From assembly GCF_000013405.1 (NCBI RefSeq), contig NC_007759.1, positions 124,001-188,000 on the forward strand: a DNA stretch of 64,000 nucleotides, in the 5' to 3' direction. The DNA is from Syntrophus aciditrophicus SB (GTDB lineage: Bacteria; Desulfobacterota; Syntrophia; Syntrophales; Syntrophaceae). Position numbers and translations under genes: made by a program. The notes below the pieces were generated by a model, which did no database searches, was not told where the DNA came from, and saw only the letters and a list, made by a program, of their open reading frames with translations. Positions 35,275 to 55,930 of this stretch are shown piece by piece (position 1 is the first letter of the stretch; each line of letters opens with the position of its first letter).

Positions 35275-36264
35275 GTGATAGATATGTTGGATACTTATAA
35301 CCGGAATATAAATTACCTGCGTATATCCGTGACTGATCGATGTAATTTACGGTGCCGGTATTGTATGCCCGAAGAGGGTATTTCCAAGCTTGACCACAGG
35401 GAAATTTTGAGTCTGGAAGACATCGTCAGGTCGGTTAAAGTTGCCGCTGGGGTGGGTATTCGTAAGATTCGGCTGACCGGTGGCGAGCCGCTGGTACGTA
35501 AAGACATTGCCCGACTGATCGGCTTTATTTCTGAAGTCCCGGAAATTGACGATATTGCCATGACTACCAATGGGGTTTTATTTGCAGATATGGCAGAGCA
35601 ATTAAAAGCCGCTGGATTGGATCGGGTAAATTTCAGCATGGATACGATGGTATCTGAAAAATTCAGATATATTTCACGTCGGGATCATCTGGCAGATGTG
35701 AGGAAGGCCATTTTCAAAGCCCTGGAACTCGGGCTGGAACCGGTTAAAATCAATACCGTGGTCATCAGGGGATTCAATGATGATGAGCTTCTGGATTTTG
35801 CGGATCTTGCCTTTGATTTTCCGCTGCACATCCGGTTCATTGAATTCATGCCGATTGGAGATTTGTTATTCTGGAAAAAGGACCGCATGATTACTTCTGA
35901 GCAGATTAAAGAAAAGATTGAACAACGCTATGAGCTGACCCCGACGAAGTTAGTTAAAGGAAGCGGTCCTGCCCGATATTTCAAGCTTGCCGGCGGACGG
36001 GGCACGATCGGATTCATCACCCCCATGAGTCATAAATTCTGTTCTGAATGCAACCGGTTACGTATGACTGCCGATGGAAAACTGCGAGGCTGTTTATACG
36101 ATAAGCGAGAAATCGATTTAAAAAAAGCCCTTCAGAGCAAGCCCAGTGATGAAGATCTTAAACAGCTTTTTATTGAAGCGATCCTTCTCAAGCCCTATGA
36201 ACATCATATGGATGCTGGGTGGGGGAAGGACAACCCTCGTAAAATGAGCCAGATAGGGGGCTAA
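35275..36264 (+). CDS. moaA: GTP 3',8-cyclase, molybdopterin biosynthesis
   Basis: A 329-residue radical SAM enzyme that, with MoaC, turns GTP into the pterin precursor of the Mo/W cofactor. CNLRCRYCMPEEG near residue 24 binds the SAM cluster, RLTGGEPLVRKD follows, and the C-terminal CSECNRLRMTADGKLRGC site holds the second [4Fe-4S] cluster. The protein ends in the GG pair conserved in MoaA. The GTG at 35275 is favoured by AGGTG 7 bases upstream; an ATG three codons later is possible. It supplies cofactor for the formate dehydrogenases nearby. Confidence 0.93.
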   Translation: MIDMLDTYNRNINYLRISVTDRCNLRCRYCMPEEGISKLDHREILSLEDIVRSVKVAAGVGIRKIRLTGGEPLVRKDIARLIGFISEVPEIDDIAMTTNGVLFADMAEQLKAAGLDRVNFSMDTMVSEKFRYISRRDHLADVRKAIFKALELGLEPVKINTVVIRGFNDDELLDFADLAFDFPLHIRFIEFMPIGDLLFWKKDRMITSEQIKEKIEQRYELTPTKLVKGSGPARYFKLAGGRGTIGFITPMSHKFCSECNRLRMTADGKLRGCLYDKREIDLKKALQSKPSDEDLKQLFIEAILLKPYEHHMDAGWGKDNPRKMSQIGG

Positions 36265-37740: not shown

Positions 37741-38118
37741 ATGGTCATCGTTTCAAAAGATCCGATTGATCCGGCGACGATGTTTGAAAAAATCGAAAAA
37801 TCCAGAGGCGGCAGCGTCCTGTTGCACTATGCGGTGGTCAAGCAGAAGGTCGGCAGCAGTGTTTCCGAAGGGATCCACTTTGAACGCGTCGGAGATATGG
37901 AGGGAGAACTGTCTGCTATTTCTTCGGACATGAAACGGCAGTGGGATATCGAGGATGTGCTTCTTGTGCGGCGAACAGGAACCCTGGAGCTCGGCGACAT
38001 TATCTCCCTGGTTGCCGTCAGTTCCCCGTCAAGCAAAGATGCATTCGAAGCCTGTCGTCATGGGCTGGAGAGGTTGAAGGGGATGAAGACCATCACAAAG
38101 GCTGAACGGTTCCTCTAA
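37741..38118 (+). CDS. MoaE-like molybdopterin synthase catalytic subunit homologue
   Basis: A 125-residue protein resembling MoaE, which with MoaD adds the dithiolene sulfurs to precursor Z. VVKQKVG, the DVLLVRRTGTLELGDIISLVAVSSPSSKDAFEACR core is a clear match. It is shorter than E. coli MoaE (about 150), lacks the usual GAVVxFxGxVR glycine-rich N-terminal segment in full form, and ends TITKAERFL where MoaE has an IWKKE-type tail. It could be an active variant or a divergent relative. No moaD is present here. Confidence 0.68.
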   Translation: MVIVSKDPIDPATMFEKIEKSRGGSVLLHYAVVKQKVGSSVSEGIHFERVGDMEGELSAISSDMKRQWDIEDVLLVRRTGTLELGDIISLVAVSSPSSKDAFEACRHGLERLKGMKTITKAERFL

Positions 38119-38361: not shown

Positions 38362-39723
38362 TCAGTGCACCGGAATAAGCTCCTGCCGCACCTGTTGCTT
38401 CAAGGCCCTGATTTTCTCAACCAATGCCGTTTTCTGCGATTTGACCTTAAAAGCTGCATCATCTTGAGATTGAATCGTATTGATCAGGAAATCCAGGTGT
38501 GTATTTAGATTATTTACGGGATAGGGGTCGATGGAGCCATAAATCATGATCTTCTTTTCATCAACGTAGGGCCACCCGGCTTCCATTGTGTTGATGTCGG
38601 TTGTTCCCGGAGGCAGCGGCTCTACCCTGATCATGGTTACGGTACGGGAGGAAAAACCGGCGTTATGGTCATTAGCTGAATTATAGGGCCAAATCCATAC
38701 ATTTGGATCGGTTGCGTTGGACGCGGTGGAACGCTGATCCGGAGGACCGGGATTTTTCTGGGGAGGCACAACCCTGAATGGGCCTTCTCCATCCAGCTTG
38801 TTCTGCGGGTTCAGCACTCCCGGTGTCAGGTATTCGTCATCCCGCAGAAAAGCCAGAATCATTTTCAAATCAAGAGGGTTAACAATCTCATCACCGTTAC
38901 TTCTTCCTGCCGCCGATGGGGAACTGTAATTGCACCAGCCGGTTGAGGGATTGGTTGCCATGTCCGCCTGTTCGTTGTAATAAAAGATTGAAGAGTCATA
39001 TGTGCCGAAAACATGATAAGCGTTGGGATTATTGCTCGGATCAAAGGGGTGATATGTGGCAAATCCGTCCGGTGCATAAACTGTGATTCCTGTTGCTGAA
39101 TTCAGCTTGATCGCCTTGATGAGGTTCTCCAGGGCGACACCGTTGTATTTCGTGTAATTGTCATCCGACTTACTGGCGTTCATCAGCAGAAACTGGGTGT
39201 GCTGGGCCATCTGTTCAAGTTTTTCGAGTGAAAGCACGAGAGAGGGAGCCGGCACATTGCCCGGGTTATCAATCGCATCCCCGGGATACGTTATCGCGCT
39301 GATTTCTATCTGATTCGCATAGGCGTCCCCATCGGAATCGAGATCTTTAATTGCCAGCAAGGCTGCAGCGGTGCGTCCCAGGGTGGGCCAATTGCTCTTG
39401 TAGGCCAGGCAATAGGGATTGAGTGTCTGCTGCAGATTCTCCGGTGTACTGTCGGCCCCGTAATTCGTTTTGTAGTGGCACCACTGGCAACTGCCAAGAG
39501 TCGTCGTTTTTCCTCCTGACGTATAGGAACCGCCACTGTGGCACAGAGTGCAGCTATCCAGTTTGGTGCCGACAGCGTTGGGGTAAGCCGAGCGGAAGTT
39601 GGCTGAGTCGACGTCTCCTTCATGATTGTATGCTGCATAAATTTTGATTCCATAAAACAGGGTAAAGGAAGCGACTACGAAAACGGCAATTAAAGCGAAT
39701 ATACTCCATTTCTGTTTCTTCAT
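38362..39723 (-). CDS. exported diheme c-type protein with GEGP motif
   Basis: A 453-residue protein with an N-terminal membrane anchor or signal (KKQKWSIFALIAVFVVASFTL) and two c-type heme sites close together, CTLCH near residue 56 and CQWCH near 75. A DGEGPFRVVPPQ segment lies about residue 310, the hallmark of the GEGP-motif diheme proteins found in sulfur- and metal-metabolising anaerobes. A DSDGDAYANQIEI segment looks like a Ca2+-binding loop. ATG at 39723 with GGAGG nine bases upstream is chosen. Its electron partners are unknown. Confidence 0.72.
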   Translation of the reverse strand: MKKQKWSIFALIAVFVVASFTLFYGIKIYAAYNHEGDVDSANFRSAYPNAVGTKLDSCTLCHSGGSYTSGGKTTTLGSCQWCHYKTNYGADSTPENLQQTLNPYCLAYKSNWPTLGRTAAALLAIKDLDSDGDAYANQIEISAITYPGDAIDNPGNVPAPSLVLSLEKLEQMAQHTQFLLMNASKSDDNYTKYNGVALENLIKAIKLNSATGITVYAPDGFATYHPFDPSNNPNAYHVFGTYDSSIFYYNEQADMATNPSTGWCNYSSPSAAGRSNGDEIVNPLDLKMILAFLRDDEYLTPGVLNPQNKLDGEGPFRVVPPQKNPGPPDQRSTASNATDPNVWIWPYNSANDHNAGFSSRTVTMIRVEPLPPGTTDINTMEAGWPYVDEKKIMIYGSIDPYPVNNLNTHLDFLINTIQSQDDAAFKVKSQKTALVEKIRALKQQVRQELIPVH

Positions 39724-39802
39724 GGTCGTTACCTCCAATGAGTATTGCAGTCTGCGGGAAAGGCCGCATTAATGTAAATTTCCGGTTAACCATCTTCCAT
39801 GC

Positions 39803-41519: not shown

Positions 41520-42437
41520 TCAGGATGCCGAATAGAGAATGCGTCCGGAATCGGAAAAGTCGTAACGGCTCATTCCCCCAACCCGCTGACGGAACGCCTT
41601 GTCATGGAGAACGTCCATCAGGAGCTGCACAGGCTTTTCAAAAAAGTTGTTCTGATCCAGCACCATATCGAAGCGTTCCCGGGTTATGGGTACAAAGTCT
41701 AAACCCAGAAAATTAGCGATGGCAATGGAAGCGATTCCGACGTCCGCCTTTCCTGAAAGAACAGCAAGGCCGACTTCAAGGTGGGTGAACGCCTCCTGTT
41801 CATAACCGGCAATCTGACTCTTCTCAATTCCGAGGCGACCCAGATGGATATCCAGAAGGACCCGGGTTCCAGCCCCTGGCTGACGATTGATGAAACGCAC
41901 CCCTTCTCGGGCAAGGTCATCGAACCCGTGAATGCCTGACGGATTTCCCCGGCCTGTAACGAGGCCCAGCTCGCGGTAGAAAAGATTGACCACGACTCCT
42001 CGTCTGTCCGGCATATATTTGGCCAGGAAAGGGATGTTGTAGGTGTCATCCTGAGGGTTCCACAAATGGGTCCAGGCGATGTCGGTGTAACCGGCATTCA
42101 AGGCCAGCAGCCCGTCCCGGCTTCCTGTGCTGGCGGAAAAGATATAAAATTCCGGGTGGTCTTTCCTCAGGCTGGCCTGCAGAATATCCAGCACGGGATC
42201 ATTGCTGCCTGCCGCCAGGAGGGCGCCTCCCATTTGTCGGCTCCTCTGCCGTGCCTCGGTAAGACCGGCGTGTGCATCTTCAAGCAGCCACGCATCCACC
42301 AGATCTTTGGGGAAAAGCCATTTTCCCGTTATCCGGGTTGCTGGAATCCGCCTGGACTTGATCAGCGCATAGACCTTTTTCTCATTAATATCGAGATATT
42401 CCGCGACTTCCCGCGTATTCATCAGTGTTTCTGACAT
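41520..42437 (-). CDS. HTH regulator with periplasmic-binding-protein-like domain (tungstate/molybdate type)
   Basis: A 305-residue transcription factor. Residues 1-55 are an excisionase/MerR-like helix-turn-helix (MNTREVAEYLDINEKKVYALIKSRRIPA). Residues about 75-300 resemble a substrate-binding domain of the COG1910 group that senses oxyanions (GSNDPVLDILQASLRK, FINRQPGAGTRVLLD, GKADVGIASIA). It probably controls the adjacent tungstate/molybdate genes in response to the anion. A decayed copy of its 3' end lies upstream of the tup operon at 48509-48669. Confidence 0.83.
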   Translation of the reverse strand: MSETLMNTREVAEYLDINEKKVYALIKSRRIPATRITGKWLFPKDLVDAWLLEDAHAGLTEARQRSRQMGGALLAAGSNDPVLDILQASLRKDHPEFYIFSASTGSRDGLLALNAGYTDIAWTHLWNPQDDTYNIPFLAKYMPDRRGVVVNLFYRELGLVTGRGNPSGIHGFDDLAREGVRFINRQPGAGTRVLLDIHLGRLGIEKSQIAGYEQEAFTHLEVGLAVLSGKADVGIASIAIANFLGLDFVPITRERFDMVLDQNNFFEKPVQLLMDVLHDKAFRQRVGGMSRYDFSDSGRILYSAS

Positions 42438-42554
42438 ACCCCTTTGCCTCTTTTTATTTTCAATCGCCGTTTTGTCTGTTAGTGGTTCAATTCCCCTGAA
42501 ATGATGTGCCGTTATGTTTCATCCTGGAAATATTTAAAGTCAAACTTCACAGGC

Positions 42555-42835
42555 ATGCCCTTTCACCCGGGCGGAATCCTGCTTGGAGACTTCCTGAATC
42601 CCATGGGAATTACACAACACAGACTTGCGAAATCCCTGGGGTATCCAAGCGGCATATTGGTGAAATCATCACCGGCAAGCGTTCCATAACGGCGGACACG
42701 GCCTTGCGACCGGCCATTTTTTCCGGCACAGATCCCCAAAGCTGGATGAACTTCCAGACCCATTATGGCTTGACGGTTGCCGAAGAGAATCTCTCCGAGA
42801 GACTGAAAATTGAAGTGGTAAGATACGCTGTGTAA
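42555..42835 (+). pseudogene. HigA-type antitoxin, frameshifted
   Basis: The plus strand encodes a HigA-family XRE antitoxin broken by a frameshift near 42640. The first frame reads PGGILLGDFLNPMGITQHRLAK and the second continues GEIITGKRSITADTALR...SWMNFQTHYGLTVAEENL to a normal stop. A higB toxin gene is not present upstream. It is a toxin-antitoxin fossil. Confidence 0.75.
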
Positions 42836-42844
42836 GGGAATTCT

Positions 42845-43675
42845 TTATCCCTTATGAATAATCGTTCCTACATGTTCACCCTTCAGGGCCCGGGTGATAT
42901 TGCCTTGCTTCTGGCCGTTGATGATCTGGATGCTGCTGATGACTTCGCTGTTCTGCAGAACTTCGAGGCAGGGCCTTTCGATGATCAGATCATCAAAATC
43001 CCGGGCGAGTAGTTCGGAAGCGCTGATTTCGGAGACGAATTCGGCGTCGGGGTCCTTTTTGGGATCGTCCGTATAAAGGCCGTCTTCATCCTTGACGTAG
43101 ATGCAGCTTCGCGCGCCGATCAGGTCCGCCAGGATGATGGTGCCCACATCCGTTCGATGAACGGGGATGCGCCACCCTTTTACCGGCATGGCGAAATAAT
43201 CATAGGGGGGCATCCCGTGCATGACGGGGATGCAGTCCATGGAAAAATAGGTCGACAATTTGACGACTTCATCATGGCCGATCTTGATTCCGCCCCAAGA
43301 GGACAGCAGGGTGGCCACCAGCAGGGCATTCTGCTCCGAGATGGAGCTGCCGAATTTGGCAATGATGCCTGTCGGCATGCCCAGTTCGAGACCAATGGAA
43401 TAGATATGCCGGCTGCGGGTCCCGCCTCCCGTGGTGATGAGCATCTTGTGTTCTTTCTTGTTCGCCACAATTTCTTCAATAATTGGGGGGAGGGCCTTGA
43501 CGCCCCGGTCACAGATGGACTGGCCGCCGATCTTGATAATATCCACATCCGGGAACAGCCTTCGCTGTGGAGCAATGGTGAGGCTTTCCATAAACGACTT
43601 GCTGACCAGGCTTTCCCCCATCAGTTTACTCTTTATGTGCAGACGCCGTCCGTCCCGTTCGCGCCAAAGCCCCAT
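42845..43675 (-). CDS. molybdenum storage protein, MosB-like
   Basis: A 276-residue amino-acid-kinase-fold protein very like the beta subunit of Azotobacter molybdenum storage protein: IKIGGQSICDRG, GGGTRSRHIYSIGLELG, FGSSISEQN, IYVKDEDGLYTDDPK and the terminal GEHVGTIIHKG all match. It also has MPPYDYF...GWRIPVHRTD, similar to the RIPPHR region of the alpha subunit. MoSto packs molybdate or tungstate as polyoxometalate clusters with ATP. No separate MosA gene is present, so a single-subunit cage is likely. GGGAGA precedes the ATG. It is the last gene of a three-gene set next to the tungstate importer. Confidence 0.85.
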   Translation of the reverse strand: MGLWRERDGRRLHIKSKLMGESLVSKSFMESLTIAPQRRLFPDVDIIKIGGQSICDRGVKALPPIIEEIVANKKEHKMLITTGGGTRSRHIYSIGLELGMPTGIIAKFGSSISEQNALLVATLLSSWGGIKIGHDEVVKLSTYFSMDCIPVMHGMPPYDYFAMPVKGWRIPVHRTDVGTIILADLIGARSCIYVKDEDGLYTDDPKKDPDAEFVSEISASELLARDFDDLIIERPCLEVLQNSEVISSIQIINGQKQGNITRALKGEHVGTIIHKG

Positions 43676-43691
43676 GAAAATCTCCCTTCGT

Positions 43692-43907
43692 TTATTCCTT
43701 TACTTCCACTTCTTCTTCCTTTTCACCATGTTTCAATAAAACCAGTTCTGCCCCCACCGCCTCGGCGATCTGCTCCAGTTCCTGTTTGCGCATGTGCTTC
43801 GGGTAGAAGGTGAGATCGATATCCGTTACGGCGACGAGAGTAAACCGCGGCTTCTTTTCCCCTTCACTGACTTTCCGACGTTCCCGATAAAAAATCTTGC
43901 CTGCCAT
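43692..43907 (-). CDS. small conserved-looking 71-residue protein
   Basis: A 71-residue acidic-tailed protein that I do not recognise. It has a basic N-terminus (MAGKIFYRERRKVSEGEKKP), a beta-like RFTLVAVTDIDLTFY and a helical stretch QELEQIAEAVGAELVLLKHG. It sits 16 bases upstream of the MosB-like gene and 19 bases after the TiaS-like gene, with its own ribosome site (GGAGGC). Position suggests a helper of metal storage. Confidence 0.65.
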   Translation of the reverse strand: MAGKIFYRERRKVSEGEKKPRFTLVAVTDIDLTFYPKHMRKQELEQIAEAVGAELVLLKHGEKEEEVEVKE

Positions 43908-43926
43908 GGTTAAGCCTCCTTATGCG

Positions 43927-44649
43927 TTAGTTGTTTTTCCCTCTTTTTCCACCCATAATTTCCCACCGGCCTTTGCCCGTCTGAATTACGGGCAAGACCG
44001 CTCTCTGTCCCCAGAATCTGGGACGCAACCATCCTTTGGTAAAAACCGTGTCTTCCGGATGAGGGACGATGGCATCTCTATCCAGAGAAACCACGGAAAT
44101 GCCGCATTGTGTTAATGCAGATACGGAAACCTGATCCGGATGGGCTCTCAGATTTCCAAACTCGATGAATCTTCCACTCCAACCCGATGCCGTGAGACCG
44201 ACGGCGGCGGCGGCACCTATAATTCCGTCATTCGTACCTCCATGACCGGAAAGGTGAACCCCGGAGGTTGCCTCCAGTGCTTCTCTCTGCGTCATGATTC
44301 TTTCCGTGCATCGTTGCCCGAAAGCCATCAAACCTGGCAGGTCCGGGTGCCTTTCAGGAGCAAGACACAGCCCGGGATCGCTTCCCGGCAGGGACTCTCG
44401 ACAGATATGCTCGCGGGCCCGTTCAAGAATCGTTTCAGTCAGCGAGGGATCAGGTATATCGAGAACCACACAGGCCGAACTGTTGTGAGATGTGTAAGGA
44501 ATTGCGGGATCGACCAGGAGCTGCTGTCTGACTACACCCCATACGCGGCAATTTTCAGGAAGAAGCGCTTCAAAATGACGGGCCAGCTTTCCTGTGCCGA
44601 TTGCCGCCTCGGCATTATCCGTATCATCAAATCCAACATAAAGTTTCAT
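43927..44649 (-). CDS. TiaS-like GFDDTD-domain protein
   Basis: A 240-residue protein whose N-terminus, GFDDTDNAEAAIGTGKLA, is the conserved opening of the TiaS/DUF1743 family (tRNA-Ile2 agmatinylcytidine synthase in archaea). Further family features are HNSSACVVLDIPDP and GHGGTNDGIIGAAAAVGL. The catalytic and RNA-binding C-terminal domains of TiaS are missing, so a tRNA role is unlikely; an ATP-dependent step linked to metal storage is a guess from context. It heads the group TiaS-like, 71-residue protein, MosB-like. Confidence 0.7.
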   Translation of the reverse strand: MKLYVGFDDTDNAEAAIGTGKLARHFEALLPENCRVWGVVRQQLLVDPAIPYTSHNSSACVVLDIPDPSLTETILERAREHICRESLPGSDPGLCLAPERHPDLPGLMAFGQRCTERIMTQREALEATSGVHLSGHGGTNDGIIGAAAAVGLTASGWSGRFIEFGNLRAHPDQVSVSALTQCGISVVSLDRDAIVPHPEDTVFTKGWLRPRFWGQRAVLPVIQTGKGRWEIMGGKRGKNN

Positions 44650-44808: not shown

Positions 44809-45906
44809 TCAGGCCGATTTCCGGATTACATGAACGGCGGTAGCCTTGAAGGAGGCCTTGACGGTTTGACCCTCCTGAAATTCCAGACTGTCAAGGGATG
44901 TGCGGGTAATGTAGGAAATGAGATCAAAACCACAGTCCAGATCAACGCGGTAGAAAAGTCCGTGGGGAGCGATGCGTGTAATCCGTCCCGAAAAATTGTT
45001 TCGAGCACTGCTCTGTTCTTCCGGCGAATCCGTGGACAGGGTGACGTTTTCGGGACGAATGCAGCAGAGTACCTGCTCTCCCACTGGGAAATTCCCCACA
45101 GCTTCAATTTTTTGATTGCCGACGGCAATCATTATCCGTCCGTTCTGACTTTCCAGGACACTGCCGGTCAGGAGCGTGTCCATTCCGACAAAGGCGGCCA
45201 CGAATTCATTGACCGGGTGATTCATGACCTCTTCCGCTGAACCCATCTGGGCGATCTTTCCCTGCTGGATGACGGCAATGCGGTCGGACAGGCGGAGTGC
45301 TTCCATTTGATCGTGGGTGGCCATGATCGCGGTAGTCTCGGTCTCCCGCAGAAGACGGCTGAGGTCCGAGATGATGCCTTCGCGGGTGGGGGGGTCCAGC
45401 GCGGAAAAGGGTTCGTCCAGAAAAAGAATGGTCGGACTCGTTGCAAAAGCGCGGGCGATACTGGTCCTCTGGGCTTCTCCGCCGGAGACTTTGCATGCGG
45501 AACGCTTTGCCAGATGGGCGATTCCCAGGCGTTCCAGGCATTCTTCCGCGATCCGCGTACGGTCCTTCTTTTCCATCCCCCGGATTTTCAGGCCGGATGC
45601 CACGTTTTCCAGCACTGTGGTGTCAAAAAGAAGGGGATCCTGAAACACAACGGCGATCTGACGACGATAATCGAGCTCGCTACGGCGGCTGTCAATCTCA
45701 CTGCCGTTGAAAATCAGTTTTCCCCGGTACAGCTTCAACAAACTGGACAAGGTCAACAGAAGAGTGGATTTTCCGGAGCCGTTCGGCCCGATCAGGGAAA
45801 GTACCTCCCCTTTCATGATCGTAAAATCAGAAATATCCAGAACGGGAATTCCGCCTCGCTTAACCAAAAGATTCCTGCCCTGCAGGAGTGGACCGGCGGT
45901 TTTCAT
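44809..45906 (-). CDS. tungstate/molybdate ABC transporter ATPase (TupC/ModC-like)
   Basis: A 365-residue ABC ATPase with a C-terminal TOBE domain that binds oxyanion. Walker A is GPNGSGKST, the signature VSGGEAQRTSIARAF, Walker B ILFLDEPFSALD. The TOBE part covers about residues 280-360. Its start overlaps the permease stop by 4 bp. It drives import through the permease encoded just upstream. Confidence 0.85.
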   Translation of the reverse strand: MKTAGPLLQGRNLLVKRGGIPVLDISDFTIMKGEVLSLIGPNGSGKSTLLLTLSSLLKLYRGKLIFNGSEIDSRRSELDYRRQIAVVFQDPLLFDTTVLENVASGLKIRGMEKKDRTRIAEECLERLGIAHLAKRSACKVSGGEAQRTSIARAFATSPTILFLDEPFSALDPPTREGIISDLSRLLRETETTAIMATHDQMEALRLSDRIAVIQQGKIAQMGSAEEVMNHPVNEFVAAFVGMDTLLTGSVLESQNGRIMIAVGNQKIEAVGNFPVGEQVLCCIRPENVTLSTDSPEEQSSARNNFSGRITRIAPHGLFYRVDLDCGFDLISYITRTSLDSLEFQEGQTVKASFKATAVHVIRKSA

Positions 45907-46601
45907 CGGGGGCGCTCCCTCTGCTGAATCCGCGTCAGCACATAATTGATCAGGTAAGCCAGCAGAAGAAGGATGATGCTCAGGGCGATGGCCGTGTCAA
46001 AGTTTCCCCGTCCTGTTTCCATGACGGTGGCGGTTGTCAGCACCCTTGAATACCCCATGATATTACCGCCCACCATGATAGAGGCTCCAACCTCGGAAAT
46101 GACCCCGCCGAATCCGGCCATGACGGCGGCCAGCAGGGGCAGCCGGGCTTCCCTGATGAGAAGGCCGAGCATCTGCATGCGGGTTGCCCCGAGGGCCAGG
46201 ATCTGGAGGCGCAGTTTAGGGGGGAGGTTCTGCATGGCAGCCAGGGTGATGCCGGTGACGATGGGGGTGGCAATGACCGACTGGGCAACAATAATAGCCG
46301 TTGGCGTGTAGAGGATTTCCAGAAAGCCCAACGGTCCATTCCGCCAGAGGAAGATGGTGACAAAAAGACCCACCACCACCGGCGGCAGTCCCATCCCGGT
46401 GTTGATCAGGCTGACCACGATTTTCCGGCCCGGGAACCGGGTGAGGGCCACCACGGTTCCCGAGAAGATGCCGAAAAAGAGGCTGATGAGGGTGGCCGTT
46501 CCTGACACCTTGAGCGACAGCAGGGTGATCCCCAGGACTTCAGGGTCCAGGGTGACAATCAGGGTTATGGCCTTCCAGATGCCTTCAAGTATCAGATCCA
46601 T
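45903..46601 (-). CDS. tungstate ABC transporter permease (TupB-like)
   Basis: A 232-residue permease with about five or six hydrophobic helices. The EVGASIMVGGNIMGYSRVLTTA segment is typical of TupB and contacts the ATPase. It begins at the base after the binding-protein stop, so translation is coupled. Confidence 0.86.
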   Translation of the reverse strand: MDLILEGIWKAITLIVTLDPEVLGITLLSLKVSGTATLISLFFGIFSGTVVALTRFPGRKIVVSLINTGMGLPPVVVGLFVTIFLWRNGPLGFLEILYTPTAIIVAQSVIATPIVTGITLAAMQNLPPKLRLQILALGATRMQMLGLLIREARLPLLAAVMAGFGGVISEVGASIMVGGNIMGYSRVLTTATVMETGRGNFDTAIALSIILLLLAYLINYVLTRIQQRERPR

Positions 46602-47486
46602 TTATTTTCCGAGATCCTCCACTTTTTTCCCTGCATCGGGGAAGAACAGCGGAGATCCATATTTGCTCACACCGAAGGTTTTGATGATCTTCTGGGTTGC
46701 GGGAGACACCATGAAGTCGGCAAAGGCCTTCGCGCCCGCTGCGTTGACTTTCGGCCACTTGGCATGATTGACTTCAATTACGTGATAGATATTCAGCAGG
46801 ATGGGGTCACCTTCCATGAGGATCGGGAGACCGAGATTTTTCTGCAGAGAAAGCCATGTTCCCCGGTCGGCAAGGGTGTAGCCCTTCTTCTCGGCGGCGA
46901 CATTGAGGGTCTGTCCCATGCCCAATCCTGTCTGCTGATACCATTTCTGACCTTCGGGATTGATCCCGGCGGCTTTCCAGATAGCCTTTTCCTTGGCATG
47001 CGTTCCGGAATTATCTCCCCGGGAAATAAAGAGGGAACCAGTGTTGGCCATCTTTGTGAAGGCTTCCGGCGAGGTCCTGGAGCCTTTAATCCGAGCGGGA
47101 TCGGCGGACGGTCCCACGATGACGAAGTCGTTATGCATGACCAGACGGCGGTTGATTCCATATTGTCCTTCAATGAATTTTTTTTCCGCATCTGGGGAAT
47201 GGACGAGAAGGACATCCGCCTCGCCTTTCTGTCCCATCGCCATCGCCTGACCGGAGCCGACGGCGATGGTCTTGACAAAATAACCGGTTTTCTTTTCGAA
47301 AATCGGAATCAGGGTGTCCAGCAGTCCCGTGTCCTGAGTGCTGGTCGTGGTGGCCAGAATAATGTTTTTCTGCTTTACCTGCTTAGCCGCCTGAGCAGTT
47401 GCGGCTGTTGTCAGACCTGTAACAAGGCACAGGAGCACTAGAAATCCCAGCCAACGGAAAAGGGTGTTCAACGGTTTTCGCTTCAT
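46602..47486 (-). CDS. tungstate-binding protein TupA-like
   Basis: A 294-residue periplasmic protein with a Sec signal (to about residue 33). The mature start has ILATTTSTQDTGLLD, the TTTS motif of TupA that contacts tungstate, followed by AVGSGQAMAMGQKGEADVLLVHSP and FISRGDNSGTHAKE. It delivers tungstate (possibly molybdate) to the permease encoded next. Confidence 0.88.
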   Translation of the reverse strand: MKRKPLNTLFRWLGFLVLLCLVTGLTTAATAQAAKQVKQKNIILATTTSTQDTGLLDTLIPIFEKKTGYFVKTIAVGSGQAMAMGQKGEADVLLVHSPDAEKKFIEGQYGINRRLVMHNDFVIVGPSADPARIKGSRTSPEAFTKMANTGSLFISRGDNSGTHAKEKAIWKAAGINPEGQKWYQQTGLGMGQTLNVAAEKKGYTLADRGTWLSLQKNLGLPILMEGDPILLNIYHVIEVNHAKWPKVNAAGAKAFADFMVSPATQKIIKTFGVSKYGSPLFFPDAGKKVEDLGK

Positions 47487-47558: not shown

Positions 47559-48413
47559 TTATTTCTTCTGTGCTTTCTGCCATGCTTCCGAATTGGGGAA
47601 GAAAAGCGGGGCGCCGTATTTTTCCTTGCCGAAATCCCGGATGATCAATTGTCCCTTTTTCGGGTCGGTCAACCAGTTGACAAAACGCATCGTGTCGGTT
47701 GCATTGACTGTTTTGAATTTTTTCTGACTCACGGGGATAAGGCTGATGTAGTTCAGCATGGCTTCATCGCCTTCCACGAGGATGACCAGTGAAATCTGAT
47801 CCTTGAGGGCGAGATAGGTGGCCCGGTCGATCACCGTGTAAGCCCCTTGCTGATTGGTATATTTCAGCGTGGGGGCATTGCCTTCCGAACCTTTTTCATA
47901 GACCTGGTACCAGGAACCGGCCGGTTTGAGTCCCGCCTTCCCCCAGAGTTCCATCTCCGCCACATGGGTTCCCGACTTGTCCCCCCGACTGATGAACGGG
48001 ACGCCTTTTTCTGCAATCCTGCCCAGCGCTTCCGCGGCCGTTTTCATTCCTTTGATTCCGGCCGGGTCAGCAGCTGGACCGACCAGTACGAAATCATTGT
48101 ACATCAGCGGGATTCGCTGCGTTCCGAATCCTTCCTGGACAAACTTTTCTTCCAGGGATTTGGCATGGACCATGACGAGATCAACGTTGCCTTTCCGGGC
48201 GATATCCAGTGCCGCACCTGTCCCGGCGCCGACATGACGGACCCGGATGTCCGTTTCCTTTTCAAACGCGTTTTCCAGGGCATCGACGATTCCGGCGTCA
48301 ATGGGGCCGATGGTCGAAGAAAGCAGAACAAACTTGCTGCCGTCAACGGCGTTAGCCAATCCCGGAAACCCTAACCAGAGGAACGTCAAAAGATAAAGAA
48401 ACAATCTTTTCAT
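47559..48413 (-). CDS. second TupA-like anion-binding protein
   Basis: A 284-residue paralogue of the neighbouring TupA with its own signal peptide (residues 1-22). The ligand motif is changed: LLSSTIGPIDAGI replaces TTTSTQDTGL, while AGTGAALDIARKGNVDLVMVHA and FISRGDKSGTHVAEME are kept. A different oxyanion or affinity is possible. It lies 72 bases upstream of tupA and shares one permease with it. Confidence 0.82.
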   Translation of the reverse strand: MKRLFLYLLTFLWLGFPGLANAVDGSKFVLLSSTIGPIDAGIVDALENAFEKETDIRVRHVGAGTGAALDIARKGNVDLVMVHAKSLEEKFVQEGFGTQRIPLMYNDFVLVGPAADPAGIKGMKTAAEALGRIAEKGVPFISRGDKSGTHVAEMELWGKAGLKPAGSWYQVYEKGSEGNAPTLKYTNQQGAYTVIDRATYLALKDQISLVILVEGDEAMLNYISLIPVSQKKFKTVNATDTMRFVNWLTDPKKGQLIIRDFGKEKYGAPLFFPNSEAWQKAQKK

Positions 48414-48930: not shown

Positions 48931-49938
48931 TTATAAGTATTCATTGATCCGTCTTTCCATTTCCTCGTAGTGGAAAAGTTTCCGGAAATCAATAAGTCCG
49001 GCAAGGGCGCGGGAATAGAGCCTTACCCCCGTTTCCTCCATGATGGAAACGGGATTGAGGCCGCCGATGATGATAGCGCCAACCCGTCCTTCACTGACAG
49101 GGATATCGAGGAGGGACTGGCCTGGCATTCCGATTCGAAGCAGTCCGCCGAGGCCGATCCGCTTCATCTTCCTGTCGAGGTGTTCCACCATTTCACGGCT
49201 CTCCGCGGGAAATTCCCGGAAACTGGCGCCGATCCTGCCGTTGCCGGTCTGAACGGCGTCGATGTAATTGGTCATCCCGCTGCGAATGAAGATTTCCAGT
49301 GGATCGATGCTTGTTCCGTCGTACATGATGATTTCGGCAAAACGCAGCGGCTTTCCATTCTGAAGCTCCAGCAGTCCGCCGAACCGGGATGTGGTGGGTA
49401 TGGCATGCTTCAGCAGAACGCCGTTCAGTGTGATGGAACAGACGGTGCCGATCCCGATCGTGCCTTCGGGGACCGTGACATATCCCAGGGTTTCACCCGG
49501 TCCCAGGAAAGTGAGCAGATGCCCCATGGCGTATCCCTTCTCATAAACTTTTTTTACAAGGGGAATGCTTCTGGCAAAAATGCCGGGTTCCACGAGGGTT
49601 ACATTGATTACGACTTTCCCGGATGCTGTGTTGAGGTCAAAGTTCATCTGATAGGTCATGGTGTCGATCTTGGCGGACAGAAAACCGACTTTGTCAATGA
49701 CGTTGGAGGAATCGAATTCGTCCAGTCCTTTTTCGCTGATTGTATGGCCTCTTTTGCCGCTATTGACCGTAAGGCCGTCCTGCTCCATTTCCTGGAGATA
49801 GAGGCGGACCGTTCGTTCGCTGATTTCCTGTCCGATGGCCACAAGCTCCTGGGCAATTTTCGTGCTGGTCAGAGGCGTTCCGGAATTTTTGAGCACCCGG
49901 AGAATGGAAAGTTCCTTTTTTTTCTTTCTTTCTTTCAT
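48931..49938 (-). CDS. NrpR-type transcriptional regulator (copy 1)
   Basis: A 335-residue regulator with a winged-helix N-terminus (STKIAQELVAIGQEISERTVRLYLQEMEQDG, residues about 25-60) and one NrpR/DUF128 effector domain (about 80-330) with GTVCSITLNGVLLKHAIP, FGGLLELQNGKP and IIGGLNPVSIMEETG. NrpR is the nitrogen repressor of methanogenic archaea and responds to 2-oxoglutarate. Here it is divergent from the gltB-like gene, with palindromes in between, and could repress both. A paralogue follows gdhA at 54857. Confidence 0.85.
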   Translation of the reverse strand: MKERKKKKELSILRVLKNSGTPLTSTKIAQELVAIGQEISERTVRLYLQEMEQDGLTVNSGKRGHTISEKGLDEFDSSNVIDKVGFLSAKIDTMTYQMNFDLNTASGKVVINVTLVEPGIFARSIPLVKKVYEKGYAMGHLLTFLGPGETLGYVTVPEGTIGIGTVCSITLNGVLLKHAIPTTSRFGGLLELQNGKPLRFAEIIMYDGTSIDPLEIFIRSGMTNYIDAVQTGNGRIGASFREFPAESREMVEHLDRKMKRIGLGGLLRIGMPGQSLLDIPVSEGRVGAIIIGGLNPVSIMEETGVRLYSRALAGLIDFRKLFHYEEMERRINEYL

Positions 49939-52274: not shown

Positions 52275-54884
52275 ATGGAAAAAATACCGATACGAGTCAG
52301 TACTGGGCTGGAAAGCTTCGATTCGGTCATCGATGGCCTGAGAATAGGCGACAACGTCGTCTGGCAGGTGGATTACATCGCCGATTACCGCTCCTTCGTC
52401 ACGCCTTTCGTGCAGCGCGCCCTTTCGGAAAACCGAATGGTCGTTTATCTGTGTTTTGCCCAGCATGAGCCGCTCCTGGATGAGGATGAACGGGTTACCG
52501 TCTATCACCTCGACGCTTCCAGCGGTTTCGAGTCCTTCTCCTCCGAGGTGTACAGCATTGCGGCCCGTGAAGGGGAAGGGGTTTTTTACGTTTTCGATTC
52601 CCTTTCGGACCTGCTTTCCGCCTGGGCCACGGATCTGATGATCGGCAACTTTTTCCGGATCATCTGCCCTTATCTCTATCAGCTCAATACCGTGGCCTAT
52701 TTTGCCCTGGTGCGCGAGAATCACTCCTTCAGGACCGTCGCCAGAATCCGGGAAACGACCCAGGTGCTCCTGGATGTCTATAATGCGGATAACAAGATTT
52801 ACGTGCATCCCCTGAAGGTCAAGGGGCGCCATCTGCCCACCATGTTTCTTCCGCATCTGAAGCGTGGAGACAGCTTTTCGCCCGTAACCCGCAGTGTCGA
52901 TACGGGACGGCTTCTCCACTACTTTTCGGGAAAAGGACTGGACAGCGCGACGAGAAATCTCGATTACTGGGACCGGCTCTTCATCCACGTTGAAGAGCTG
53001 CTTCATCGAACGATCCACAGGGAAGAAAAGCGGAATCTCCTCGATCATCTCTGTGAGATCATGATCGGCAGGGAGGAACGGATCCGGTCACTTGCCCGAA
53101 AACACCTCACCCTTGAAGATCTTCTCAACATCAAGGCGAGGCTGATCGGTACGGGCTATATCGGCGGAAAGGCCGTGGGCATGATGATCGCGCGCAACAT
53201 GCTGCTTCAGGACCGTTCCTTTGACTGGCACAACTGTCTGGAGCCTCACGATTCCTTCTTCATCGGATCGGATGTTTTCTACACTTACATCGTGGAAAAT
53301 GGCTGGTGGAAGCTCCGCATGGATCAGAAGACCAGGGAAGGCTACTTCGAAGTCGCGAAGGTCTTGCGGGAAAAGATGCTGGACGGGAGGTTCCCCGAGG
53401 AAATCGAGGAGCAGTTCTGGCGGGTGATTGAATATTTCGGCCAGTCGCCCATCATCGTGCGTTCCAGCAGCCTCCTCGAAGATGCCTTCGGAAATGCCTT
53501 TGCCGGAAAATATGAGAGCATTTTCTGCGTGAATCAGGGCACGCCCGAAGAACGCTACCGGCAGTTCCGGGAGGCGATCCGCCGAGTTTATGCCAGCACC
53601 CTGAATGAAGATGCCCTGGCTTACCGCCTGCAGCGGGGGCTGGAAAAGCATGACGAGCAGATGGCCCTCCTTGTTCAGCGGGTCTCGGGTTCCTACCGGA
53701 AGGACTGCTTCTTCCCCGATCTTGCCGGCGTCGGCCTCTCTTACAACACTTTTGTCTGGAAAAAGGAGATGGACCCCCGGGCCGGCATGCTGAGACTGGT
53801 GCTCGGGCTGGGGACGCGGGCCGTCAATCGGGTGGAGAACGATTATCCGCGGATTGTCCCTCTGGATGTTCCCCTCCTGAGGCCGCATTCCGGAGAAAAC
53901 GACCTGAGGAGATATTCGCAGCATGACGTGGATGTGTTGAATATCAGCAGAAATGAATTCGAAACCATCCCGGCGGCAGACGTATTGTCGGAAGACATGA
54001 ATATCCGTTCCGAGCTGGTGGGGGTTCGGGATTACGAAAGCGAAGAGCAGTTGAAAGAAAGGGGCCGGGGCGGGCAGAGAAAGTGGATACTCACCTTTGA
54101 CGGGCTGCTCTCCGAAAACCCCTTTCCGCAGGTCATGCAGAAAATGCTGAAAACGCTTGAACGGAAATACAGTTATCCCGTGGATATCGAGTTTACAGTC
54201 AACTTTACCCGGGGTGACTCCTTCCAGATCAATCTCGTGCAGTGCCGGCCGCTGCAGACTCGGGGAGAGGGAAAGGGAATACAGGTCGTTATTCCGTCAG
54301 ATGTCCCGGAGAGTCAGATTCTCTTTCAGTCGGAGGGCAACTTCATGGGCGGCAGCCTTGTTCAGCCTGTCAAGCGTCTGGTCTATGTCGATTCCGAGGA
54401 ATACAGCCGGCTTTCTCTTTCGGAAAAATACGACATCGCCCGGCTGATCGGCCGATTGAACCGGATCAGCAGACGGGAGGAATGTCCCGCCATCCTCCTC
54501 GGTCCGGGCCGATGGGGAACGACGACGCCCTCGCTGGGGGTCCCGGTGCGGTTTGCCGAGATCAACCAGTTCGTGGCGCTTGTCGAAATCGCTTACATGA
54601 CCGGGAGCCTGATGCCGGAACTCTCTTTCGGTACGCATTTCTTTCAGGATCTGGTCGAGACGGATATCTTTTATGTGGCGCTGTTCCCGGAACGGGAGGA
54701 GTTTCTCTTCAATGTCGGGCTGATCGGGAAAGGGGAAAACAGGCTGCCCCTGCTTCTCCCGGAGTGCGGGCGTTATGAAAAGACGGTTTTTGTCCGGGAT
54801 GTCGATGCTGAAAATTTCCTGCTGATGGCAGACATCGTTTCCCGGAAGGTTCTCTGCTACACTTTCCCCAAAAGCGGCGGATAG
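52275..54884 (+). CDS. KaiC-like domain fused to PEP/pyruvate-binding (PpsA-like) domain
   Basis: An 869-residue protein. Residues 1-230 resemble a KaiC/RadA ATPase (RVSTGLESFDSVIDGLRIGDNVVW) with FYVFDSLSDLLSAW as Walker B-like region, but the GxxxxGKT loop is missing (QVDYIADYRSF), so it likely does not hydrolyse ATP as KaiC does. Residues about 310-680 match the ATP-grasp PEP synthase/PPDK N-terminal domain (GYIGGKAVGMMIARNML, IIVRSSSLLEDAFGNAFAGKYES, VQCRPLQTRG). The phosphohistidine and PEP-barrel domains are absent. A regulatory phosphotransfer role is possible. The start has GGAAAGGA upstream. It converges on nrpR copy 2 and overlaps it by 28 bp. Confidence 0.75.
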   Translation: MEKIPIRVSTGLESFDSVIDGLRIGDNVVWQVDYIADYRSFVTPFVQRALSENRMVVYLCFAQHEPLLDEDERVTVYHLDASSGFESFSSEVYSIAAREGEGVFYVFDSLSDLLSAWATDLMIGNFFRIICPYLYQLNTVAYFALVRENHSFRTVARIRETTQVLLDVYNADNKIYVHPLKVKGRHLPTMFLPHLKRGDSFSPVTRSVDTGRLLHYFSGKGLDSATRNLDYWDRLFIHVEELLHRTIHREEKRNLLDHLCEIMIGREERIRSLARKHLTLEDLLNIKARLIGTGYIGGKAVGMMIARNMLLQDRSFDWHNCLEPHDSFFIGSDVFYTYIVENGWWKLRMDQKTREGYFEVAKVLREKMLDGRFPEEIEEQFWRVIEYFGQSPIIVRSSSLLEDAFGNAFAGKYESIFCVNQGTPEERYRQFREAIRRVYASTLNEDALAYRLQRGLEKHDEQMALLVQRVSGSYRKDCFFPDLAGVGLSYNTFVWKKEMDPRAGMLRLVLGLGTRAVNRVENDYPRIVPLDVPLLRPHSGENDLRRYSQHDVDVLNISRNEFETIPAADVLSEDMNIRSELVGVRDYESEEQLKERGRGGQRKWILTFDGLLSENPFPQVMQKMLKTLERKYSYPVDIEFTVNFTRGDSFQINLVQCRPLQTRGEGKGIQVVIPSDVPESQILFQSEGNFMGGSLVQPVKRLVYVDSEEYSRLSLSEKYDIARLIGRLNRISRREECPAILLGPGRWGTTTPSLGVPVRFAEINQFVALVEIAYMTGSLMPELSFGTHFFQDLVETDIFYVALFPEREEFLFNVGLIGKGENRLPLLLPECGRYEKTVFVRDVDAENFLLMADIVSRKVLCYTFPKSGG

Positions 54885-55930
54885 TCGGGATGCCGGAGGG
54901 CATCCTTGGATTGCGGATAAGAGGAAGGGGCCGCGTGCATTTCGAACCCGTACAATCCGGACAGGGTTTCCACAGAACTCAAGGCTGGATAGTCATACAG
55001 CAGGGCAAGGGCGGAACTGTCTGAGGCCAGACCGGCCTCTTCCAGAGCGGCGCTCGGGTTCAGCCCCCCGAGAACGACCATGCCGGCCTTCCCATCCGTT
55101 ACAGGCAATCCCAGAAGGGGTTCTCCGGGCTGACCAAAGAAAATGGAACTGCGGCAACCCAGTTTCTTCAGCTTTTCATGGATTTTTCGGGCTTCACAGA
55201 GACTGTCCGCAGGGATTTCCCGGAAACTTCCGAGAATTTTTCCGGTTCCCCGGAATATGGCGCCAAGCACGTCCGTCATCCCGCTTTTGATCAGGATTTC
55301 CAGAGGCGGAACGGAAGAGCCTTCATAGCTGATCGCCGAGCTGAATCCGACGGGTTCAGAATTCCGGACCTTCACAATGCCGCCGAACTTTGTCGATACG
55401 GGAATTCCAGCTTTCAGCAGGATGCTGTTCAGCGTAATGCTGCACAGCGTGCCGATTGCCGACAGGCCGTCGGGAATGAGAAGATCGCCGAGGCACTCGC
55501 CCGACCGGGCCAGGACGATCCGGTCGCTCAGGGTATAAGGGGAACGGAGAAGAGAAGGCAGGAGGTTCAGAGCCTCCTGTAATCTCTCCTCCGGAACGTA
55601 GGTAACGTTGAGAATGACCTTCCCTCTACCCGTGTCCGGATCGAAGTCGGCCAGAAAAGCAAGATTGTTGATTTTATTGATAATAAACCCGACTCGTTCC
55701 GAGACGAATCCCTGAGTCAGCTCCTGCCGGCCTTTCGCTGTAATCCTCCGCCCTTTGCGGGCGCATCCCTCGGTAAAACCGTCCTCATCAAACTTTTTGA
55801 GATAATACCGCACGGTTCGCTCCGAAAGAGAAACTCCCTGAGAGGCGAGCCGCGTCGCCAGTTCCCTGGAGCTCAACGGCTTCCCCCCTGAATTCAGGGC
55901 TGTAAGGATTAACAGAACCAGCCGATTCAT
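54857..55930 (-). CDS. NrpR-type transcriptional regulator (copy 2)
   Basis: A 357-residue paralogue of the regulator at 48931, with an N-terminal winged helix (SSRELATRLASQGVSLSERTVRYYLKKFDEDG) and one NrpR domain containing GTLCSITLNSILLKAGIP, FGGIVKVRNSEP and VVLGGLNPSAALEEAG. It lies 20 bases downstream of gdhA and is probably in the same transcript, so its level may follow gdhA expression. Together the two copies could form a heteromer or control separate targets. Confidence 0.85.
   Translation of the reverse strand: MNRLVLLILTALNSGGKPLSSRELATRLASQGVSLSERTVRYYLKKFDEDGFTEGCARKGRRITAKGRQELTQGFVSERVGFIINKINNLAFLADFDPDTGRGKVILNVTYVPEERLQEALNLLPSLLRSPYTLSDRIVLARSGECLGDLLIPDGLSAIGTLCSITLNSILLKAGIPVSTKFGGIVKVRNSEPVGFSSAISYEGSSVPPLEILIKSGMTDVLGAIFRGTGKILGSFREIPADSLCEARKIHEKLKKLGCRSSIFFGQPGEPLLGLPVTDGKAGMVVLGGLNPSAALEEAGLASDSSALALLYDYPALSSVETLSGLYGFEMHAAPSSYPQSKDALRHPDYPPLLGKV

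Follow-up and report, generated by a model that had tools for sequence, protein, structure and literature searches.

The gene that we here name mosS raises the question of what a relative of the molybdenum storage protein (MoSto) does in Syntrophus aciditrophicus SB, an anaerobe in which this gene lies beside two unexplained genes and an ABC importer. The characterized MoSto supplies FeMo-co synthesis, and a 2019 paper still described it as lacking known homologues in the protein databases (PMC6448029). The original prediction placed at this locus a MoSto relative of one subunit type, accompanied by two partner genes and next to a tungsten/molybdenum (W/Mo) importer, and this arrangement proved to recur across five phyla. 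The known kind is MoSto, and what is new is the single-subunit variant together with two undescribed partners, the small protein p71 and a TiaS-like protein; a search of openly accessible papers found neither single-subunit MoSto relatives nor p71 described. We consider the locus to be, on balance, probably a cassette by which anaerobes import and store W/Mo.

The window, that is, the whole 64,000-nucleotide stretch of DNA that was analyzed, covers positions 124001-188000 of a genome assembled as a single contig of 3,179,300 bases. The open reading frames of MosS, p71, and the TiaS-like protein were verified at the coordinates given in Table 1. As had been claimed, the three genes are co-directional, and the importer genes, which that claim had not included, share their direction, so that seven minus-strand genes follow one another: TupA-like, TupA-like, TupB-like, TOBE-type ATPase, TiaS-like, p71, and MosS. 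Good ribosome-binding sites precede p71 (TAAGGAGG) and MosS (AAGGGAG); scans for promoters and terminators returned signals no better than those in shuffled sequences. The adjoining gene, previously read as an HTH/anion-binding regulator, does encode domains of both types, and at 14 of 80 loci (the best 80 of 147 matches to the p71 profile, see below) a homologue lies close to the cassette. Genes for molybdopterin biosynthesis, moaA and moaE, are located 5-8 kb from the cassette.

Table 1. Genes of the cassette and its neighborhood, in window coordinates
Feature	Coordinates	Strand	Basis
MosS (name given here), single-subunit MoSto-family protein, 276 aa, amino-acid-kinase fold	42845..43675	-	PF00696 84 bits; PDB MoSto beta E 5e-68; grouping with other single-subunit proteins
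p71, basic, 71 aa, no known family, predicted beta-beta-alpha-beta core	43692..43907	-	adjoins MosS in 22/22 phylum genomes and 78/80 loci (best 80 of 147 matches); AF2 pLDDT 71
TiaS-like GFDDTD protein, 240 aa, probable ATP-dependent enzyme of a stand-alone family	43927..44649	-	profile E 6e-7 to TiaS; AF2 pLDDT 90.7; TiaS top fold match E 2e-9
ABC ATPase with TOBE domain (WtpC/ModC-like)	44809..45906	-	PF00005, TOBE; WtpC 284 bits vs cut-off 440
ABC permease, TupB-like	45903..46601	-	NF038017 260 bits > cut-off 100; TupB 150 bits vs cut-off 320
TupA-like substrate-binding protein	46602..47486	-	NF041772 247 bits vs cut-off 400
Second TupA-like substrate-binding protein	47559..48413	-	NF041772 166 bits vs cut-off 400
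Regulator, HTH_17 + PBP_like (probable oxyanion-sensing)	41520..42437	-	PF12728, PF12727; 3' of MosS
MoaA, molybdopterin biosynthesis (neighborhood)	35275..36264	+	Mob_synth_C, Radical_SAM
MoaE (neighborhood)	37741..38118	+	PF02391

Several further genes of the neighborhood were recorded. Between the regulator and mosS, on the plus strand (42506-42835), lies a HigA-like antitoxin frame that scores 47.6 bits against a cut-off of 47.7 and has no obvious toxin partner. A probably exported 458-aa CxxCH protein without a Pfam match is encoded at 38362-39738, and its relatives are found near MosS or W importers in four loci (L047, L071, L109, and L157). On the other side, two NrpR-type regulators (48931-49938 and 54857-55930) enclose genes for a glutamate-synthase-like and a PPDK-like protein, and a glutamate dehydrogenase is encoded farther out; this nitrogen-control cluster adjoins the W/Mo cassette.

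Judged by sequence, MosS is a member of the MoSto family. It had been called a close MosB relative; the best match in the PDB is indeed the MoSto beta subunit, ahead of alpha (E 2e-49), with residues 14-273 aligned (phmmer), but the identity to Azospirillum MosB is only ~42% and MosS-type proteins form a group of their own. A tree built from 44 sequences unites the single-subunit proteins (support 89/92) and places them next to the Thermodesulfobacteriota tandem pairs, the position of Azospirillum MosA and MosB not being settled by it. A relative in Syntrophus sp. PtaU1.Bin005 is 88% identical. The absence of a MosA gene, noted earlier for the immediate surroundings, extends to the whole genome, which encodes six amino-acid-kinase proteins with one MoSto-like match among them and in which no second MoSto subunit was found. 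Among 395 Thermodesulfobacteriota genomes, 22 carry a single MosS-type gene, each with one MoSto-like gene only (22/22), 4 carry tandem MosA/MosB-type pairs, and 1 carries a C-terminal fragment.

The ATP motifs of the amino-acid-kinase type (K48, G50-G51, G83, D176, and K195) are invariant in 80 single-subunit proteins, and so, in MosS-type proteins, are the MoSto-family residues D56, R87, H90, N116, and PPY 156-158. In MosA, the Mo8 cluster is held by Glu129 and His156 (PMC4504029). With this numbering transferred to Azospirillum MosA by residue spacing, the Glu129 position is Gly in 63/80 single-subunit proteins and the His156 position is Asp or Gly in all 80. Conserved instead are His134 (75/80) and His153 (65/80), which are the best candidates for new cluster ligands. 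At His140 of MosA, which we take to be a further cluster-ligand position, the equivalent residue is Tyr or Phe. Because the cluster-holding residues are replaced, the interior chemistry of MosS must differ from that of MosA; a hexameric, metal-filled cage, a MoSto-like interior, and storage as polyoxometalate are all putative. The MosA-like RIPVHR segment pointed out in the original prediction is real, although it concerns one residue: position 173 is His in MosA and most single-type proteins, and Tyr in MosB.

A few aberrant members of the family were also encountered. Two loci (L188 and L189; G505 and G503) contain two tandem MosS copies, ~870 bp apart, after one p71, a possible start of a two-subunit cage. 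In Azospirillum brasilense Sp7 p5 (L167:667-5945), the mosB frame is fused to an unrelated phage-like N-terminus beside a tape-measure-like gene and thus seems to have been broken by a prophage, relatives having intact copies. A 72-codon C-terminal MosS remnant follows TupA-like and importer genes at L065:3088-6126 and L033 (G285).

The association of MosS with its two partners was traced within the phylum and beyond it. p71 was detected in all 22 MosS genomes of the Thermodesulfobacteriota sample, always adjoining MosS, versus 2/373 others, one of these being diverged (Fisher p 4e-34), and TiaS-like genes, including copies located elsewhere in the genome, in 21/22 versus 10/373 (p 2e-26), values that overstate independence because genomes of one phylum are related. 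None of the 4 tandem MosA/MosB-type pairs has p71 beside it, and the annotation around the Azospirillum mosBA genes shows no p71 either. A p71-profile scan of one genome per species (84,980 species), which did not require MosS, gave 147 matches; at 78 of the best 80, MosS is present at a median gap of ~40 bp, and of the two loci without an adjoining MosS, L146 is located where a contig ends, while the genome of L145 has its MosS on another contig. These loci belong to Thermodesulfobacteriota, Bacillota, Synergistota, Spirochaetota, and Chloroflexota. In the class of Bacillota to which a Pelotomaculum genome belongs, a search from the MosS side found MosS in 12/113 genomes with p71 beside it in 11, the twelfth lying at a contig end. 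The co-directional run of importer ATPase, TiaS-like, p71, and MosS is conserved in eight loci; in eight loci of one clade, p71 and MosS are arranged tail-to-tail and still adjacent, so their link is not merely that of one operon. Chance is far from sufficient to explain an arrangement that dozens of genomes from five phyla have in common, and the recurrence in other phyla together with the tail-to-tail arrangement is a better argument than the Fisher values. Co-occurrence of the three genes elsewhere, the check that the original prediction had proposed for itself, is thereby borne out. The p71 and MosS distances are correlated (r 0.64; maximum 0.22 in 500 permutations), as expected of any co-inherited pair. 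Three loci (L111, L113, and L128) have two tandem p71 copies followed by one MosS.

p71 was described as a protein of unknown kind, and it has remained one: the window protein matches no Pfam or NCBIfam family, and none of 69 members has a significant match in Pfam. F6, R8, R10, P20, and H38 are invariant, K12, K18, R21, R40, and E43 nearly so, and residues 1-45 have a median charge of +6, as would suit contact with an anion or with a cage of negative charge. The AF2 model has a beta-beta-alpha-beta arrangement at moderate confidence; a fold search with it returned nothing significant (best E 0.14), and a profile match to thermosome segments, weak at E 0.02, was attributed to chance. Two diverged relatives occur without MosS. 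The first (L048:1724-1972, G167; E 1e-10) immediately precedes moaA and a mogA-like gene, which connects the p71 family a second time with the synthesis of the Mo/W cofactor; the other (L191:6268-6519, G432), from Bacillota, lies 5 kb from an fdhD-like gene, near groESL.

The third protein had been regarded as a truncated TiaS-like GFDDTD protein. The relationship to the kinase-type domain of TiaS stands (Table 1), whereas truncation is ruled out by the uniform length of the relatives (~240 aa) and their conserved C-terminal third. D8, D9, T10, and D11 are invariant in the family. The protein of this locus scores below the cut-offs of both NCBIfam TiaS (16 bits, cut-off 600) and methanogenesis marker protein 11 (15.9 bits, cut-off 255.8; best relative E 1.3e-12). 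TiaS is the agmatidine synthetase that modifies a nucleotide of tRNA-Ile2 in archaea. Since TilS is present in the genome, no TiaS is needed for tRNA-Ile2, and modification of this tRNA was rejected as the main role. Apparent TiaS-like fusions of 470 aa (G184, G331, and G282) are open frames extending 5' of an internal start and are not convincing. Outside the cassette, a second TiaS-like subgroup adjoins TonB-receptor/ECF transporter genes or FecCD-type ABC importers (L055, L058, L063, L064; L053, L054, L060, L061, L068). In G273, whose genome lacks MosS, p71 and the TiaS-like gene stand in a row of TonB receptor, TiaS-like, p71, ECF-type ATPase, and ECF T component (L047:4847-10985), which may be a path for W or Mo across the outer membrane.

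The destination of the metal was approached through the importer and the enzymes encoded in the same genomes. TupA-, TupB-, and WtpC-like genes do adjoin the cassette, in line with the tungstate ABC importer predicted earlier, but their products, although recognizable, score under the NCBIfam equivalog cut-offs, and specificity for tungstate is plausible. TupA or TupB was found inside the examined flanks of 23/80 loci (best 80 of 147 p71 matches). TupA-like genes are also present in 38/58 genomes without MosS; their correlation with MosS is weak (p 0.03), the baseline genomes for TupA and nifH being a non-random sample. This genome has four matches to the AFOR family, of the tungsto-enzyme type; such proteins occur in 22/22 MosS genomes but also in 288/373 without MosS (p 0.006, weak). 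No nifH was detected in this genome at E 1e-60, and only 1/22 MosS genomes has one above the cut-off. The importer recurring directly 5', the AFOR proteins in all MosS genomes, and the rarity of nifH favor W/Mo storage or buffering for pterin-bound enzymes.

We infer with good reason that MosS stores W/Mo. The TupABC-like importer would bring in tungstate or molybdate, and MosS, the sole MoSto-family subunit in the cell, would self-assemble, probably into a homo-hexameric ATP-binding cage, and hold the oxyanion as a metal-oxide cluster on a binding surface unlike that of MosA. p71 probably attaches to the cage or to its anion and takes on one of the tasks of the second subunit in Azotobacter, be it nucleation, gating, or unloading, and the TiaS-like protein probably uses ATP, as an enzyme of the TiaS kinase-domain type, for loading or mobilizing the metal. 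The stored metal would probably go to pterin-bound W/Mo enzymes (AFOR-type oxidoreductases and formate dehydrogenases), not to nitrogenase. The observed basis consists of homology, the lack of a second subunit, constant gene association, changed ligands, kept ATP-site motifs, and the near absence of nifH. Points that speak against this reading are the replaced MosA ligands, the importer scores under the tungstate cut-offs, the frequency of AFOR and TupA-like genes in genomes without MosS, and G273 with its p71 and TiaS-like genes but no MosS. We give roughly even weight to the broader claim that anaerobes of at least five phyla possess a separate W/Mo storage system that supplies pterin-bound W/Mo enzymes and consists of a homomeric MoSto-type cage of new interior chemistry, p71 as an obligate partner from a new family, and an ATP-using enzyme of the TiaS type dedicated to it.

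The main alternative to storage is an uncharacterized kinase pathway, in which MosS would be an amino-acid-kinase enzyme acting on a nucleotide or small metabolite and would form, with p71 and the TiaS-like protein, a metabolic or nucleotide-modification pathway, the importer being incidental or serving another oxyanion. Such a role would fit the retention of the kinase ATP motifs alongside the loss of the cluster ligands of MosA, the action of TiaS itself on a tRNA nucleotide, and the 57/80 loci (best 80 of 147) without TupA/TupB in the examined stretch. We nevertheless regard it as unlikely. UMP kinase (PyrH) has the superfamily fold in common with MosS, but MosS scores below the cut-offs of both profiles (63.2 bits vs 158, archaeal; 36.8 vs 243.9, bacterial) and a separate pyrH exists elsewhere in the genome in the context rpsB-tsf-pyrH-frr, so UMP kinase identity was rejected; the invariant MoSto-family residues listed above are absent from PyrH, TilS makes TiaS superfluous for tRNA-Ile2, and the importer-cassette run recurs in eight loci. 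Under the second alternative, the cassette would be a W/Mo buffer or a delivery system of small capacity that stores no cluster, in which MosS with ATP would bind a few oxyanions and pass them via p71 to pterin-cofactor assembly, the TiaS-like protein activating the oxyanion or the cofactor. The nearby MoaA and MoaE, the p71 relative 5' of moaA in G167, and again the lost ligands are consistent with it; however, membership of the MoSto family by itself suggests a cage, and the p71-moaA association is found in one genome only. We hold this reading to be quite doubtful. Azotobacter-style molybdate storage for nitrogenase, the role served by the characterized MoSto (PMC6448029), is very improbable and was rejected for most members, since MosS genomes mostly lack nifH and nitrogenase is not the usual destination.

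Returning to storage, the constant p71 and frequent TiaS-like neighbors of MosS point to uncharacterized W/Mo handling. W storage in tungsten-dependent anaerobes and the path of the oxyanion to the pterin cofactor are poorly known, and a widespread MoSto variant with constant partners provides three concrete proteins to study; it also shows that the MoSto family is not bound to nitrogen fixation, and the p71 and TiaS-like families merit names and functions.

Comparison with known systems places the three proteins as follows. TiaS and methanogenesis marker protein 11 share with the TiaS-like protein an N-terminal kinase-like domain and the DDTD motif; TiaS is ~420 aa long with C-terminal domains, whereas the remainder is missing from the TiaS-like protein, whose host has TilS and whose neighbors are Mo/W importers, TonB/ECF or FecCD-type transporters, and MosS. 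The MosA/MosB protein of Azotobacter vinelandii (PDB 2OGX, 4NDO, and 6GU5) and MosS share a sequence family, ~260 aligned residues, the ATP motifs, and the PPY and RH residues. MoSto, however, is a hexameric cage filled with tens of Mo or W atoms and consists of two different subunits encoded together, while MosS is of one subunit type only, with Gly, Asp/Gly, and Tyr/Phe in place of the MosA ligands Glu129, His156, and the His140 equivalent, almost always accompanied by p71, and mostly outside nitrogen fixers. One described tungstate store, Tub/Mop of Eubacterium limosum, is a TOBE-domain protein that binds eight oxyanions per hexamer (PMC11980592); unrelated to MosS in sequence, it has in common with it the proposed storage of W for tungsto-enzymes in a non-diazotrophic anaerobe.
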